The notes under the pieces: generated by a model
Seen by the model: the letters and a program-made list of their open reading frames with translations, nothing else
What the model was told of the DNA's origin: nothing
The model's database searches: none
In this document: piece by piece, positions 3,532 to 10,503 of the stretch
How positions within the stretch are numbered: the first letter of the stretch is position 1
How the letters are laid out: each line of letters opens with the position of its first letter
Program-made: the position numbers and the translations under genes
Source of the DNA: Rhodococcus triatomae
Lineage (GTDB): Bacteria > Actinomycetota > Actinomycetes > Mycobacteriales > Mycobacteriaceae
Direction: 5' to 3'
Assembly (NCBI RefSeq): GCF_014217785.1
Contig: NZ_CP048814.1
Coordinates: 372,001-436,000, forward strand
Length of the DNA: 64,000 nt

Positions 3532-4857
3532 TCAGGCGGGTCGGGTGTGCCCGTCTCCCCAGACGATCCACTTGGTGGACGTCAGTTCGGGCAGCCCCAT
3601 CGGGCCCCGCGCGTGCAGCTTCTGTGTCGAGATCCCGATCTCCGCACCGAACCCGAACTGCTCACCGTCGGTGAACGCGGTGGACGCGTTCACCATGACG
3701 GCGGCTGCGTCCACCCGCGCGGTGAACTCGCGTGCCGCCGCGAGGTCGGTGGTGACGACGGCCTCGGTGTGCCCGGTTCCGTAGCGGTCGATGTGTTCGA
3801 CCGCCGTATCCAGATCGTTCACGATCTTCAGCGCGATGTCGAGGGTGAGGTACTCGCGCGACCAGTCGTCGTCGGTGGCCGGGGCCAGCCCGGGAAGGTC
3901 TCCGTGCACGACCACACCGTGCGCCTGCAGTGCATCGACCAGCCGGGGCACCGCGGTGTCCGCGATCGCCGCGTCCACCAGCACCGTCTCGGCGGTGTTG
4001 CAGACACTGGGCCGTCGGGTCTTGGAGTTGAGCAGGACCTTCTCCGCGACGTCGAGGTCGGCCGCGGAGTGCACGTAGACGTGTACGTTGCCGACGCCGG
4101 TCTCGATCGTCGGGACGGTCGCGTCCCGCACGACGGCGTCGATGAGCCCCGCTCCACCGCGCGGGATCACGACGTCGACGAGTCCGCGGGCCTGGATCAG
4201 GTGGGTGACCGACGACCGGTCGTCGCTGGGTAGCAGCTGGACCGCGTCCGCGGGCAGACCTCGTTCGACCAACGCCGAACGCAACACCTCGACGAGCGCG
4301 GCATTCGACCGGGCCGCCGACGACGATCCCCGCAGGAGGGCGGCGTTGCCGGATTTGAGAGCCAGGCCGAAGGCGTCGACCGTGACGTTGGGACGGGCCT
4401 CGTAGACCATGCCCAGCACCCCGAGCGGCACCCGGACCTGCCGCAGCTCGAGACCGTTCGGAAGGGTGGATCCCCGGACGACCTCCCCGATCGGATCGGG
4501 GAGCCCGGCGACCTGCCGCAGCCCCGCCGCGATCCCGTCGATCCGGTCCGCGGTGAGGCGGAGCCGGTCCACGAGCGATTCCTCCGTGCCGGCGGCGCGC
4601 GCTGCCGCCACGTCCTCGTCGTTGGCCGCGAGCACGGTATCGGTGGCGGCGAGCACGGCGTCGGCGGCGGCATCCAGGGCAGCGTTCTTGTCCACCGTGG
4701 TGAGCAGGGCGAGGGTCTTGGACGCGGTGCGGGCGCGACGCGCGGCGTCGTGCACCACCGTGCGGACGACATCCGACGAGCCGGCCGGGCCCGGTCGCGT
4801 ACCCGCCGATCCGGTGAGGTCCGATCCGGCCGGTGTCGAGGAGGTCGCGGCAGTCAT
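3532..4857 (-). CDS. proA: Gamma-glutamyl phosphate reductase (glutamate-5-semialdehyde dehydrogenase)
   Basis: NADPH-dependent second step of proline synthesis, reducing glutamyl-5-phosphate to glutamate semialdehyde. At 441 residues it is slightly longer than usual because of a Ser/Gly/Pro-rich N-terminal tail of about 25 residues. The catalytic cysteine lies in SVCNTAE, with Cys at residue 286. A TAGTCT box six bases before the ATG supports a leaderless start at 4857. The partner kinase gene proB is 7.5 kb away, after the rbsK-to-sirtuin segment. The gene is divergent from ribokinase with only about 40 bases between start codons. Confidence 0.96.
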
Positions 4858-4863
4858 GTCTAC

Positions 4864-4869
4864 AGACTA
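4864..4869 (-). promoter_or_regulatory. -10 box for leaderless proA
   Basis: TAGTCT on the minus strand, six bases before the proA ATG. It lies back-to-back with the rbsK box at 4885-4890, so both divergent transcripts must start within a gap of about 40 bases. Confidence 0.5.
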
Positions 4870-4884
4870 TCGGCCGACCACGAC

Positions 4885-4890
4885 TAGCCT
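4885..4890 (+). promoter_or_regulatory. -10 box for leaderless rbsK
   Basis: TAGCCT lies seven bases before the GTG at 4898. This spacing supports the GTG over the upstream in-frame ATG at 4856, which would overlap the proA start codon. Confidence 0.45.
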
Positions 4891-4897
4891 CGACGGC

Positions 4898-5758
4898 GTG
4901 CCCGCACCTCGCGTCGTCGTCGTCGGATCGATCAACATGGACCTGATCGTCGGGACTCCCCGGATCCCGGATCCGGGCGAAACCGTCCTCGGTGACCGAT
5001 TCGCCACCGGCCCCGGCGGCAAGGGTGCCAACCAGGCCGTCGCCGCGGCCCGGGCCGGCGCCGAGGTGGCGTTCGTCGGTGCGGTCGGGACCGACACCTT
5101 CGCCCTCGAGCTGCGACAGTCACTGGTCGATGCCGAGGTGGACGTGACGCAACTACGCGAGATCGACGGCCCCAGCGGCGTCGCGATGATCACCGTCGAC
5201 GATGCGGGCCGAAACAGCATCGTCGTCGCGCCCGGCGCGAACGGCAGCCTCGCCGGGCTGACCGCGGCGGATCTCGACGCGATCGCGAGCGCGGACGTGT
5301 TGTTGTGTCAGCTCGAGATCCCCCTCGACACCGCGGTGTCGGCGACTGCCCACGCCCGGGCGCACGGCACCGTCGTCCTGCTGAACCCCTCCCCCGTGCG
5401 CCCCCTGCCGCCGGACCTCACCGATTCCGTCGACGTCCTCGTGGCGAACGAGGCCGAGGCGGCGCAGCTCGCCGACGACATCGCCGCCGTCCCGCACCGG
5501 ATCACCACCCTCGGCGGCCGGGGCGCGAGACATCTCGGCCCCGACGGCGGCCGCACCGCCGTGGCCCCGCCGCAGGTGGACGTCGTCGACACCACGGGTG
5601 CGGGAGACGCCTTCGCCGGGGCACTGGCCGCGGTGTGGGGGCGCCGAGACGACGCGCTCGCGTTCGCCGTCGCGGCCGGTGCACTCGCCACCACCCGGCG
5701 CGGGGCAGCGGCCTCGGCCCCACAGCTGCAGGAGATCGAGTCGATTCTGCCCGACTGA
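4898..5758 (+). CDS. rbsK: Ribokinase (PfkB family)
   Basis: Phosphorylates ribose to ribose-5-phosphate, feeding the pentose phosphate pathway and PRPP synthesis. The 286-residue protein carries both PfkB signatures: GGKGANQ at residues 40-46 and the anion-hole/catalytic motif GAGD at 234-237 (Asp237 the general base). The reading frame stays open far upstream across proA, but that part is antisense shadow. No ribose transporter genes are nearby, so the source of ribose is unclear. A hairpin follows at 5788-5805. The helicase gene downstream carries a phosphoribosyltransferase-like domain, which hints at a shared ribose-phosphate theme (inference). Confidence 0.9.
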   Translation: MPAPRVVVVGSINMDLIVGTPRIPDPGETVLGDRFATGPGGKGANQAVAAARAGAEVAFVGAVGTDTFALELRQSLVDAEVDVTQLREIDGPSGVAMITVDDAGRNSIVVAPGANGSLAGLTAADLDAIASADVLLCQLEIPLDTAVSATAHARAHGTVVLLNPSPVRPLPPDLTDSVDVLVANEAEAAQLADDIAAVPHRITTLGGRGARHLGPDGGRTAVAPPQVDVVDTTGAGDAFAGALAAVWGRRDDALAFAVAAGALATTRRGAAASAPQLQEIESILPD

Positions 5759-5920: not shown

Positions 5921-8101
5921 ATGACGAGCGCAGCAAGCGATTTCCGCGACACCGAGTCGACCGACGTTCGCGACACCGGGCTGCGCACCGAGGCGCAGGC
6001 TCTCCTCCAGGATCTGGCAGGCCCCGACGCCGTTCTCCGCGACGATCAGTGGACGGCGATCGAGGCGCTCGTCGTACACCGGCGGCGCGCCCTGGTCGTC
6101 CAGCGCACCGGCTGGGGCAAGTCGGCCGTCTACTTCATCGCTGCCCGCCTCCTGCGTACCCAGGGATACGGTCCGACGGTCATCGTCTCCCCGCTGCTGG
6201 CGCTCATGCGGAACCAGGTGGCCGCCGCCGAGCGGGCCGGAGTACGGGCCGCGACGATCAATTCGGGCAACGTCACCGAGTGGGACGACATCCACGCGCG
6301 CGTCGCCGCGAGTGAGGTGGACGTCCTGCTGGTGAGCCCCGAACGACTCAACAACCCGGACTTCCGCGACCAGGTCCTGCCCGCGCTCGCTGCCGACGCG
6401 GGCCTGGTGGTGGTCGACGAGGCCCACTGCGTCTCCGACTGGGGACACGACTTCCGCCCCGACTACCGGCGCATCCGGACGCTTCTCGCCTCGCTCGGCA
6501 CCGACGTCCCGGTCCTCGCCACCACGGCCACGGCCAACGATCGGGTGGTCACCGACGTCTCCGCCCAACTGGGCGTGGGCGCCGGGCCGGGCGAGGGCGA
6601 ACCGGGCGAGGAGGACGGACGCCGAGACACCCTGGTGCTGCGTGGCGGACTCGAACGCGAATCACTGCACCTGTCCGTCGTCCACATCCCCGAGCCTGCC
6701 GCCCGTGCGGCCTGGCTGGCCGACCGGCTCGCGGCGCTCCCGGGATCGGGCATCGTCTACACCCTGACGGTGTCCGCGGCGGCAGATCTCGCCGCGCTCC
6801 TCACCGAGGCGGGTCACACCGTGGCTGCCTACACCGGGCAGACCGACCCGACCGAGCGGGAGCACCTCGAACAGGCGCTCCTGCGCAACGAGGTCAAGGC
6901 GCTCGTCGCGACGTCGGCGCTGGGTATGGGATTCGACAAGCCGGATCTCGGCTTCGTCGTGCACGTCGGCGCTCCGTCGTCGCCGATTTCCTACTATCAG
7001 CAGGTCGGACGCGCCGGGCGCGCCACGGATCGCGCCGAGGTCATCCTGCTGCCCGGCGCCGAGGACCGGCAGATCTGGAGCTACTTCGCCTCGGTCGCGT
7101 TCCCGGGGGAACCCACCGTGCGTTCCGTCATCGCCGCGCTCGACACCGACCGGGCCACCTCCACCCCCGCGCTGGAGCCTCTCGTAGATCTCGGCCGTGC
7201 CCGGCTCGAGATGGTGCTCAAGGTGCTCGACGTCGACGGTGCCGTCCGCCGGGTCCGCGGCGGCTGGATCGCCACCGGTGAGCCGTGGGCCTACGACGCC
7301 GAGCGGTATCGACGTCTCGAGGCCGCCCGCCGTACCGAAGAGGAGGCGATGCTCGAGTATCAGCGCATCGGCACCTGCCGGATGGCGTTTCTGCGCCGCC
7401 AGCTCGACGACCCGTCGCTCCCGGAACTCGGCGGCGCTGCGGACTGCGGGCGGTGCGACAACTGCACCGGCACACACCGCTCCACCCTGGTCGACGACGC
7501 CGCCGTCGCCGGCACCCGAGCGCGGCTCGAACGGCCCGGCGTGGACCTGGCGCCCCGCAAGCAGTGGCCCACGGGCCTGGCGAAACTCGGCGTCTCGTTG
7601 TCCGGCCGGATCTCGGACGGGCCGCAGCCCGGACGGGCACTGGGGCGGCTGGCCGACCTCGGCTGGGGCCCCCGGCTCCGGGAGTTGCTGGGCAGCCCGG
7701 ACGGCGACGTGCCGGAAGCCGTGGTCTCGGCCGCCGTCCAGGTTCTCGCCGCGTGGGACTGGACGGAACGGCCCACGTCCGTGATGGCCGTGGAATCGCC
7801 CTCACATCCCCGGCTCGCGGCCACCCTGGCCGCCCGCCTGGCCACCCTCGGCCGCCTGCGCGACCTCGGCGTCCTGCACCGCGTCCCCGACCATCCGGCG
7901 GTGACCGCGGTCAACTCGGCGCACCGGGTGGCGGGTCTCGTCGATGCCTGGGCTGCACCCGACCTCACGGGGGTGGCCGGGCCGATCCTGCTGGTGGACG
8001 CACTGAGCGACAGCGGCTGGAGCATCACGATGGCCGCCCGGACGCTCATCGGTGCGGGAGCCGAGAGCGTACTTCCCTTCGTCCTCGCCACGCCGAAGTA
8101 G
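5921..8101 (+). CDS. RecQ-family DNA helicase with C-terminal phosphoribosyltransferase-like domain
   Basis: ATP-dependent 3'-5' DNA helicase of the RecQ type, 726 residues from the ATG at 5921. Motif I TGWGKS is at residues 63-68, the DEAH box at 166-169 and motif [10 protein letters not shown] at 360-367. A zinc-binding cysteine set follows (Cys486, then Cys509, Cys512, Cys515). No classical HRDC domain is seen. Instead the last ~200 residues end in [12 protein letters not shown] at 689-700, which looks like the PRPP-binding loop of type I phosphoribosyltransferases. The frame is open upstream to 5795, but that leader is poor coding sequence. The gene has no equivalent in the syntenic mycobacterial segment as I recall it. 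Confidence 0.85.
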
Positions 8102-8255: not shown

Positions 8256-8768
8256 ATGACGCCTGACAAAACGAGTGCCATCCCGACCACCGCGCCGGAC
8301 GCGGTGTTGTTTCGCTGTCCAGAGATCTCAGACGGAGTCCGGCTCTGGGAGATCGCCAGGAATTCCGAAGTGCTCGATCTCAATTCGAGCTACGCCTACC
8401 TGCTGTGGTGCCGCGACTTCGCCCGCAGCTCCGTCGTCGCCGACGTCGACGGACGCGCGGTGGGTTTCGTCACCGGGTTCGTCCGGGCAGAATCTCCTGA
8501 CACACTGTTCGTCTGGCAGGTAGCTGTCGACTCCTCCCAGCGCGGCAAGGGAATTGCCGGCCGGATGCTCGACGACCTCCTCGACCGCCTGGCCCCGGAA
8601 GGGGTCACGCAGCTCGAAACGACGATCAGCCCCGACAACGAGGCATCGATCGCACTGTTCACCGCATTGGCCCGCCGTCGCGGAGTCTCCATTTCGAAGC
8701 AGGGGCTGTTCTCCCCCAACGATTTTCCCGACGGACACGAAGCCGAAGATCTCTACACGATCGGCTGA
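8256..8768 (+). CDS. ectA: L-2,4-diaminobutyrate acetyltransferase
   Basis: Acetylates 2,4-diaminobutyrate at the gamma-amino group, the second step of ectoine synthesis. The 170-residue GNAT-fold protein has the acetyl-CoA loop QRGKGIA at residues 96-102 and the EctA substrate region DLNSSYAYLLWCRDF at 41-55. The chosen ATG gives MTPDKTSA; an in-frame ATG at 8232 is the alternative and neither has a strong ribosome-binding site. It is first in ectABC, with 28 bases before ectB. The upstream 150 bases hold the Crp-like dyad. Confidence 0.94.
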   Translation: MTPDKTSAIPTTAPDAVLFRCPEISDGVRLWEIARNSEVLDLNSSYAYLLWCRDFARSSVVADVDGRAVGFVTGFVRAESPDTLFVWQVAVDSSQRGKGIAGRMLDDLLDRLAPEGVTQLETTISPDNEASIALFTALARRRGVSISKQGLFSPNDFPDGHEAEDLYTIG

Positions 8769-8796
8769 TTTCACACACACCGGAGGAATGCACGTC

Positions 8797-10059
8797 ATGA
8801 CCACCGCGGAAACCGATATCTTCCAAACGCTCGAGTCCGAAGTCCGCAGCTACAGCCGCGGATGGCCCACGGTCTTCGAGTCGGCATCCGGTTCCTGGCT
8901 GCGCAGCGAGGACGGCCGGGACTACCTGGACTTCTTCGCCGGCGCCGGAGCCCTCAACTACGGGCACAACAACCCGGTCCTCAAGGCCGCGCTCATCGAC
9001 TACATCGCCGGCGACGGCATCACCCACGGCCTCGACATGCACACCGTCGCGAAGCGCGAACTGCTCGAGAGCTTCGACAGCCACATCCTGAAGCCGCGCG
9101 GCCTCGACTACAAGGTCCAGTTCCCCGGCCCGACCGGCGCCAACGCCGTGGAGTCGGCATTGAAACTGGCCCGCAAGGTCACCGGCCGTTCGTCGATCAT
9201 CAACTTCACCAACGCGTTCCACGGCATGACTCTCGGAGCCCTGTCGGTCACCGGAAACTCGATGAAACGTGCGGGCGCCGGAATCCCGCTGGTGCACGCG
9301 ACTCCCATGCCGTTCGACAACTACTTCGACGGTGTCACCGAGGACTTCCACTGGTTCTCCCGCGTCCTCGACGATTCCGGCAGCGGCCTGAACCGCCCCG
9401 CCGCGGTCATCGTGGAGACCGTCCAGGGCGAGGGCGGCGTCAATGTCGCACGCCCGGAATGGCTTCGGGCCCTTGCGAAGTTGTGCTCCGACCGCGACAT
9501 CCTCCTCATCGTCGACGACGTCCAGATGGGTTGTGGCCGCACCGGCCCCTTCTTCTCGTTCGAGATCGCGGGCATCACGCCGGATATCGTCACCCTGTCG
9601 AAATCCATTGGCGGATATGGCCTTCCGATGGCTCTCACGCTGTTCAAACGGGATCTCGACGTCTGGTCGCCCGGCGAGCACAACGGCACGTTCCGCGGCA
9701 ACAACCCCGCGTTCGTCACGTCCAAGGTGGCACTCGACCACTACTGGTCCGACGACTCGCTGCACCAGGCGACGCTCGCGAAGGGTGCCCGCATCGCGGA
9801 GGCCTTCACCGAGCTGAGTACCCGCTACGAGGGCCAGGTCAGCACCCGCGGCCGCGGGCTCGTCCAGGGCCTCGTCTTCGAGGAGCCCGATCACGCCGCG
9901 AAGGTCTGCAACATCGCCTTCGACCAGGGCCTGCTCGCCGAGACCTCGGGCCCGTCGGACGAGGTCGTCAAGCTGCTCCCGCCGCTGACGATCACCGAGG
10001 ACGAACTCGACCACGGTCTGCGGATCCTCACCGAGGCGACCGACACGGTGTGCAGCTGA
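8797..10059 (+). CDS. ectB: Diaminobutyrate--2-oxoglutarate aminotransferase
   Basis: PLP-dependent class III aminotransferase that converts aspartate semialdehyde to 2,4-diaminobutyrate with glutamate as donor, the first committed step of ectoine synthesis. The 420-residue length is typical. The PLP lysine is Lys269 in TLSKSIGGYG, with the IVDDVQMGCGRTG segment upstream. An in-frame ATG at 8788 abuts the GGAGGA ribosome-binding site directly, whereas the ATG at 8797 has correct spacing, so 8797 is preferred. Confidence 0.96.
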   Translation: MTTAETDIFQTLESEVRSYSRGWPTVFESASGSWLRSEDGRDYLDFFAGAGALNYGHNNPVLKAALIDYIAGDGITHGLDMHTVAKRELLESFDSHILKPRGLDYKVQFPGPTGANAVESALKLARKVTGRSSIINFTNAFHGMTLGALSVTGNSMKRAGAGIPLVHATPMPFDNYFDGVTEDFHWFSRVLDDSGSGLNRPAAVIVETVQGEGGVNVARPEWLRALAKLCSDRDILLIVDDVQMGCGRTGPFFSFEIAGITPDIVTLSKSIGGYGLPMALTLFKRDLDVWSPGEHNGTFRGNNPAFVTSKVALDHYWSDDSLHQATLAKGARIAEAFTELSTRYEGQVSTRGRGLVQGLVFEEPDHAAKVCNIAFDQGLLAETSGPSDEVVKLLPPLTITEDELDHGLRILTEATDTVCS

Positions 10060-10104
10060 CCCACCGAATCGGGTCGAACAAGTAAGAAAGAGAAGGCTGA
10101 ATTC

Positions 10105-10503
10105 ATGATCGTTCGTACCACCGCCGAGATCACCGACACCGATCGCGACGTCACCGCCGAGAACGGGAACTGGCGGAGCAAGCGCATCATCCTCGGTGGG
10201 GACAAGGTCGGATTCTCGTTCCACGAGACCACGATCAAGGCCGGCACGGTCAACGAGTTCCACTACGCCAACCACGTCGAAGCCGTGTGGCTGGTCGAGG
10301 GCACAGGCACCCTCACCGATCTCGACAACGGCACGGTCTACGACCTCGCGCCCGGGTCGATGTATCTGCTCGACGGCCACGAGCGGCACCGCGTCGAGCC
10401 CGTGACGCAGATGCGGATGCTGTGCGTGTTCAATCCGCCGGTCACCGGGCGTGAGGTGCACGACGAGAACGGTGTCTACCCCTTGATCGACGTGCCGGCG
10501 TAG
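10105..10503 (+). CDS. ectC: L-ectoine synthase
   Basis: Cupin-fold dehydratase that cyclises N-gamma-acetyl-diaminobutyrate to ectoine. The 132-residue protein has the EctC signature: WRSKRIIL near residues 23-30, the cupin segment HYANHVEAVWLVEG, and GSMYLLDGHERHRV further on. An AGAAAGAGAAGG stretch upstream serves as ribosome-binding site. No ectoine hydroxylase (ectD) or dedicated aspartokinase follows, so the product should be ectoine rather than hydroxyectoine unless ectD lies elsewhere. Confidence 0.96.
   Translation: MIVRTTAEITDTDRDVTAENGNWRSKRIILGGDKVGFSFHETTIKAGTVNEFHYANHVEAVWLVEGTGTLTDLDNGTVYDLAPGSMYLLDGHERHRVEPVTQMRMLCVFNPPVTGREVHDENGVYPLIDVPA

Follow-up and report, generated by a model that had tools for sequence, protein, structure and literature searches.

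A chromosomal RqlH helicase of Rhodococcus triatomae with an altered phosphoribosyltransferase-like tail

RqlH helicases and the architecture of the Rhodococcus protein

RqlH reportedly received its founding description in 2012 from Ordonez, Unciuleac and Shuman, in Mycobacterium smegmatis. That protein reportedly comprises a RecQ-like ATPase, a linker, a four-cysteine zinc region and a ComF-like phosphoribosyltransferase (PRTase) tail, and the protein described here has the same parts. As set out by Russell and Mulvey (2015; PMC4670107), RqlH is a RecQ-family helicase that carries a PRTase domain; it first became known from M. smegmatis (MSMEG_5935), and its ortholog in P. syringae is PsyrT. 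The tail of the M. smegmatis protein is dispensable for the ATPase and helicase activities, RqlI is missing in that species, and RqlH is genotoxic to E. coli when its partner RqlI is missing (PMC4670107).

The window, the whole stretch of 64,000 nucleotides of R. triatomae DNA that was analysed, carries rqlH (psyrT-like) at 5921..8101 on the forward strand, with an ATG at 5921, a stop codon ending at 8101 and 726 codons before the stop. On the basis of the open reading frame, the PADLOC PsyrT profile and full-length relatives, we annotate the 726-aa product as a RecQ-like helicase with a putative C-terminal ComF-type PRTase. The PsyrT profile extends over residues 23-724 (E 8e-203), an architecture shared in full with E. 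coli RqlH-RqlI and P. syringae PsyrTA, and the window protein is a full-length relative of RqlH, alias PsyrT. The original prediction that a RecQ helicase is fused here to an extra C-terminal domain was thus correct. The fusion as such is nothing unusual, because the RqlH/PsyrT family had already been described; the RecQ-PRTase fusion is real yet not new, and the family is an ordinary one.

The RecQ-like ATPase core spans approximately residues 22-390 (5984..7090), with Pfam DEAD at residues 41-212 and Helicase_C at 274-368. A RecQ of solved structure is alignable to residues 23-379, and RecQ-type helicase matches stop at about residue 390, where a linker begins. The four-cysteine zinc region follows at 7376..7465 (Cys 486, 509, 512 and 515, each at 100% in the four tabulated groups), with a weak RecQ_Zn_bind match on residues 470-516 that falls under the model cut-off (E 0.0029). 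The helicase core and zinc cluster had been predicted to end near residue 520, and this is right because the four cysteines close the zinc region, the last of them being residue 515. The core and zinc region are shared with E. coli-type RecQ. Unlike that enzyme, the window protein has no HRDC domain among Pfam matches to E 10, a search in which HMMER filters may lose weak matches, and it scores 247 bits against the NCBIfam recQ cut-off of 640.2. Apart from rqlH, the R. triatomae genome (one contig, 4.77 Mb) contains only weak helicase matches.

Conservation among relatives extends over the full length of the protein and takes in the tail, so the fusion is no chance product. With a limit of E 0.001, a kin search gave a match of some kind in 61 of 61 genomes and a long RqlH-type match in 54 of the 61, the window's own genome being counted both times; the remaining seven had weak helicase matches alone, one of these genomes being only 74% complete. 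Across a phylum-wide sample, 56 of 296 genomes (own included) matched at E 1e-90 or better. A collection of species genomes returned at least 592 pattern hits, at least 588 of which code for a relative when the threshold is as loose as E 1e-3; the best 80 of these at least 588 relatives all span residue 24 or earlier to residue 722 or later. The nearest titled relatives among the matches listed come from Antrihabitans, Rhodococcus and Nocardia. Eleven of 224 matching plasmid records cover at least 80% of the query at one place, and these include records from a cyanobacterium, a haloarchaeon and proteobacteria.

Several relatives deserve separate mention. A Halanaeroarchaeum plasmid encodes a full-length haloarchaeal RqlH (L147, 3974-6055), and the flanks fetched around it contain no RqlI-like gene. 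Two Rhodococcus plasmids carry RqlH copies, absent from the CDS listed in the plasmid gene tables, that are approximately 60-68% identical to the window protein across the helicase part and end soon after the zinc region, without a PRTase tail (L149, 5001-6473; L150, 4974-6518). Eight relatives additionally encode a second RecQ-like protein (L223-L230; open frames of 564-768 aa), 33-37% identical in the helicase part and with a different tail (WGxGxV...VLFDxxGYRTLS). The idea that these short paralogs are split versions of RqlH gained no support, three PRTase profiles being negative across the 11-12.5 kb around each.

The PRTase-like tail and its pocket

For the tail (residues 520-726; 7478..8098), a PRTase-like fold had been predicted, with a Pfam profile search of these residues proposed as a check. 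Searched alone, the window tail matched no Pfam family, Pribosyltran included; NCBIfam gave a weak ribose-phosphate diphosphokinase hint (E 0.093), and a PDB search with the tail as a single sequence returned no PRTase. The family as a whole gave a clearer signal. With the E limit set permissively at 1, 78 of 98 family tails gave a Pribosyltran match (best 1.6e-7), the window tail not being among them. In the PDB, a family tail profile matched PRPP synthetases (E 2e-4) and, more weakly, HGXPRT, APRT and PurF. When the same profile was compared by hhalign with a profile of the order's ComFC proteins (30 loci, 25 past the length filter, one identical to the query), the match reached 97.3% (E 6e-11) and spanned 186 columns, with most of the confidence in the second half; the controls gave 0.1% for shuffled columns and 4.5% for an HPRT profile. 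Against single sequences, the tail profile reached 60.9% with ComFC, 35.5% with HPRT (over 26 loop columns only) and 0.1% with ribokinase. The predicted fold is therefore backed by family-level sequence profiles and finds no Pfam match in the window's own tail, and these profiles support a PRTase-like domain of ComF type. HPRT-like kinship was rejected on the difference between the two profile scores. The HPRT/XGPRT loop reads Asp-Asp-x-x-Asp-Thr-Gly, and the tail loop resembles it. RqlH carries its PRTase C-terminally of a helicase, whereas ComFC of natural transformation is a small stand-alone protein that has an N-terminal zinc finger of its own (PMC9005727).

The PRPP-loop motif, taken from the alignment columns, comprises 13 residues (689-701; 7985..8023), with Ala at residue 694. 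A 12-residue motif had been said to end the tail. It is present (residues 689-700), but 26 residues more follow, and the tail is therefore not strictly motif-terminated. As a PRPP-binding loop, the motif keeps the first acid and the phosphate loop and lacks the second acid: the window protein has Asp693-Ala694, and thus no two adjacent acidic residues.

We followed these positions through an alignment of 143 full-length rows (query start <40, end >700) from 152 loci, with six loci for other helicases, the DprA locus and two truncated copies from plasmids set aside. Group labels come from titled records for 20 of 51 Nocardiaceae-type and 25 of 27 mycobacterial-type rows, the rest being placed by likeness. 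Position 693 is Asp in 141 of the 143 rows and position 694 in 90, with Asp at both in 89. Of the 51 Nocardiaceae-type rows, 50 have a residue other than Asp at position 694 (Thr in 23, Ala in 22, Leu in four, Ser in one), whereas all 27 mycobacterial-type rows, which do not include MSMEG_5935 itself, have Asp there. Asp also occupies the position in 31/31 outgroup rows (Amycolatopsis, Saccharothrix, Nonomuraea, Actinomadura and others), in 4/4 non-actinobacterial rows and throughout two more actinobacterial clusters (9/9 and 10/10 rows); the 11 ungrouped rows have Asp in eight, Ala in two and Pro in one. The exceptions are L038, a Nocardiaceae-type row that keeps Asp 694, and L036, L065 and L144, which lose it outside the group. 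Two rows near Nocardiaceae depart further, L036 reading VP with both acids gone and Dietzia L084 reading Thr-Asp with the first acid gone. On a FastTree phylogeny of the helicase part alone, a single branch separates each group from the rest (support 91 for the 51 Nocardiaceae-type rows), and the state of residue 694 requires at least six changes.

A second change affects the presumed pyrophosphate-loop region (residues 625-630, ESPSHP; 7793..7810), marked by the group counts at residue 625. This residue is acidic in 48/51 Nocardiaceae-type and 27/27 mycobacterial-type rows, and is Gly or Pro in 27/31 outgroup rows and Pro in 4/4 non-actinobacterial rows. In the hhalign alignment it lies opposite a ComFC region that we take to be the pyrophosphate loop of that protein. 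Other parts of the pocket are retained. The first acid (693) and residue 697 are kept in 51/51 Nocardiaceae-type rows, as is the Ser/Thr-Gly-Trp-Thr/Ser phosphate loop (Ser-Gly-Trp-Ser in the window protein), and Trp 700 is present in 143/143 rows. Residue 697 was rejected as a universal catalytic base, being Asp in 127, Glu in six and other residues in ten of the 143 rows.

These observations bear on whether the tail remains functional in binding PRPP or ribose phosphate and lets the helicase answer to nucleotide pools, the role originally predicted. The retained first acid, residue 697 and phosphate loop would fit such a tail, as would the fact that, among solved structures, loops of PRPP synthetases match the family profile best. 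The uracil PRTase family is enzymatically active. Ten PRTase-family loci were found in the host genome, nine with the acidic pair, and the tenth, uracil PRTase, has a loop (LDPMLATGGS) that also lacks the second acid; the change at residue 694 is therefore no proof that PRPP is lost. ComFC of H. pylori has, moreover, been crystallised with PRPP (PMC9005727). Against this, the second acid is lost throughout nearly the whole group and the presumed pyrophosphate loop is acidic, both of which would make PRPP- or ribose-phosphate-responsiveness less likely here; no Pfam PRTase model matches the window tail, and our search for reports of a ligand found none for any RqlH. The order's ComFC proteins, unlike the window RqlH, keep the acidic pair in 26/26 rows, although few of these belong to the same family. 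Compared with an active type I phosphoribosyltransferase, the window tail has the Ser/Thr-Gly-x-Thr/Ser phosphate loop and lacks both the paired PRPP-loop acids and a Pribosyltran match. We therefore consider a working PRPP domain unlikely. The pocket of Nocardiaceae-type RqlH is altered, from which a loss of PRPP binding would not follow. The group-wide change in a presumed active site is one modest new point, and residue 694 is unmentioned in the RqlH literature we found through a search that was not aimed at that residue.

The altered tail does not appear to be decaying. Tail-to-helicase divergence ratios were 2.06 for the Nocardiaceae type (51 rows, 1166 pairs), 2.46 for the mycobacterial type (27 rows, 348 pairs) and 2.26 for the outgroup (31 rows, 456 pairs), and show no sign of relaxed selection on the whole tail. 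Since the tail is not evolving faster, it is probably retained for a job, perhaps one other than PRPP transfer.

Partner gene and neighbouring genes

Russell and Mulvey found RqlH alone in 99.6% of Gram-positive carriers (PMC4670107), and the actinobacterial loci agree with this figure. Two RqlI queries run over the 152 loci detected RqlI-like genes adjoining rqlH in 3 of 143 full-length loci, none actinobacterial, and no such gene in the flanks of the 139 actinobacterial full-length loci (downstream flanks of 0-6 kb). The three neighbours are in Nostoc (L146), Sinorhizobium (L148, in two reading frames) and Acinetobacter (L152). Behind rqlH on pSymB of Sinorhizobium meliloti, the RqlI-like match carries no gene annotation (L148, 5983-7373). 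The Acinetobacter sp. SH20PTE14 plasmid pYUSHP14-1 carries its rqlH-rqlI (PsyrT-PsyrA) pair within a BREX operon (L152, 438-10079), in the order pglX, rqlH-rqlI pair, DUF262 gene, pglZ. Directly 3' of the window rqlH, no rqlI/psyrA was found and ectA sits there instead, which sets the locus apart from E. coli RqlH-RqlI and PsyrTA. Loss of the partner was rejected as the sole cause of the change at residue 694, because mycobacterial-type and other actinobacterial loci also have no adjacent RqlI and retain Asp 694.

In E. coli K-12, the RqlH tail is required for genotoxicity and is not toxic alone, and helicase mutants show complex behaviour; with either DIVD663EVME or D663A, RqlH no longer inhibits growth, induces SOS or causes filamentation, and viable counts still fall modestly (PMC4670107). 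Judged by motif, with the E. coli sequence unaligned, D663 would correspond to residue 697 here, which the window protein retains; the first Asp of the mutated DIVD would correspond to residue 694, which differs in being Ala. It is conceivable, then, that the window protein is an orphan PsyrT-type defence toxin, in which infection or DNA damage frees a genotoxic PRTase as in RqlHI/PsyrTA. The PsyrT profile match, the retained residue 697, the tail-dependence of E. coli genotoxicity, largely removed by D663A, and the relatives that adjoin DprA-like genes, one of them in a BREX operon, are compatible with this. We nevertheless regard it as improbable, in view of the 0/139 actinobacterial loci with an RqlI-like gene in the flanks, a host genome whose sole PF02481 match is DprA at C1:4027061, far from rqlH, immediate neighbours (the only ones examined for this) that are proA, rbsK and ectA, rqlH groups that follow taxonomy on the tree, and the insufficiency of the E. 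coli tail alone for toxicity.

The upstream neighbour (4856..5758, forward strand), which we do not count as part of the system, lies 162 bases from its stop end to the ATG of rqlH, as originally described. With TIGR02152 it scores 255.9 bits, below the cut-off of 299.65, and is hence called ribokinase-like. A functional link between ribokinase and helicase had been proposed, with conservation of the rbsK-recQ adjacency as its check. The adjacency recurs in part: among the 49 of 51 Nocardiaceae-type loci that were usable (two have too little upstream flank), rbsK ends <400 nt upstream of rqlH on the same strand in 14, lies farther upstream in 19 and was not seen in 16, six of which have only approximately 1.5 kb of flank. 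It was also not seen near rqlH in 27/27 mycobacterial-type and 31/31 outgroup loci, and the closest relative (L008) has proA in its place, with no rbsK in a 1.5 kb flank.

Downstream, ectA lies <700 nt from rqlH in 33/51 Nocardiaceae-type loci and in 0/26 mycobacterial-type and 0/30 outgroup loci (one locus of each was dropped for a short flank). A tie between ectA and the helicase is not known. Ectoine genes occupy 8256-10503 of the window, downstream of rqlH and on its strand, namely ectA by TIGR02406 and presumably ectB and ectC, named by likeness; this gene order recurs in many Rhodococcus-like relatives. Because rbsK lies so close upstream on the same strand in those 14 loci, rbsK and rqlH are possibly co-transcribed in some Rhodococcus-like species, and this proximity is what would favour a module leading from ribose phosphate to the helicase. 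We give such a module very little credence: adjacency occurs in only part of one group, is missing from the fetched flank of the closest relative and from the mycobacterial-type and outgroup loci, and is rarer than that of the unrelated ectA. The ribokinase adjacency looks incidental, a matter of local gene order.

A proposed role for the tail

Taken together, we consider it somewhat more probable than its alternatives combined (roughly 0.55) that the window encodes, on the chromosome of a Nocardiaceae-type actinobacterium, an RqlH that has no antitoxin gene beside it and whose motor is joined to a ComF-type tail that has shifted from, or lost, Mg-PRPP chemistry. By analogy with the M. smegmatis enzyme, the front 515 residues would most likely act as a 3'-5' DNA translocase and helicase in DNA repair or recombination. 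Across the Nocardiaceae-type group, the tail may bind something else, or bind PRPP differently; it is most likely a nucleotide-, single-stranded-DNA- or partner-binding module and would steer the ATP-driven motor or its partners. A parallel for such a tail is H. pylori ComFC, whose ligands include PRPP and AMP and whose binding of single-stranded DNA survives a change to its nucleotide site (PMC9005727).

A possible though rather doubtful history for this shift is that the tail turned into a pseudo-PRTase in the Nocardiaceae: a common ancestor with mycobacteria would have gained the pyrophosphate-loop acid, and the second PRPP-loop acid would have been lost later in the Nocardiaceae, under normal constraint. 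If this is true, it would represent a natural, clade-wide split of helicase control from the genotoxicity of bacteria with RqlH-RqlI. The role of the RqlH PRTase tail is left open in PMC4670107, and a group of bacteria in which a presumed active-site residue has been replaced while the domain stays constrained provides a natural comparison for separating binding, catalysis and helicase control.
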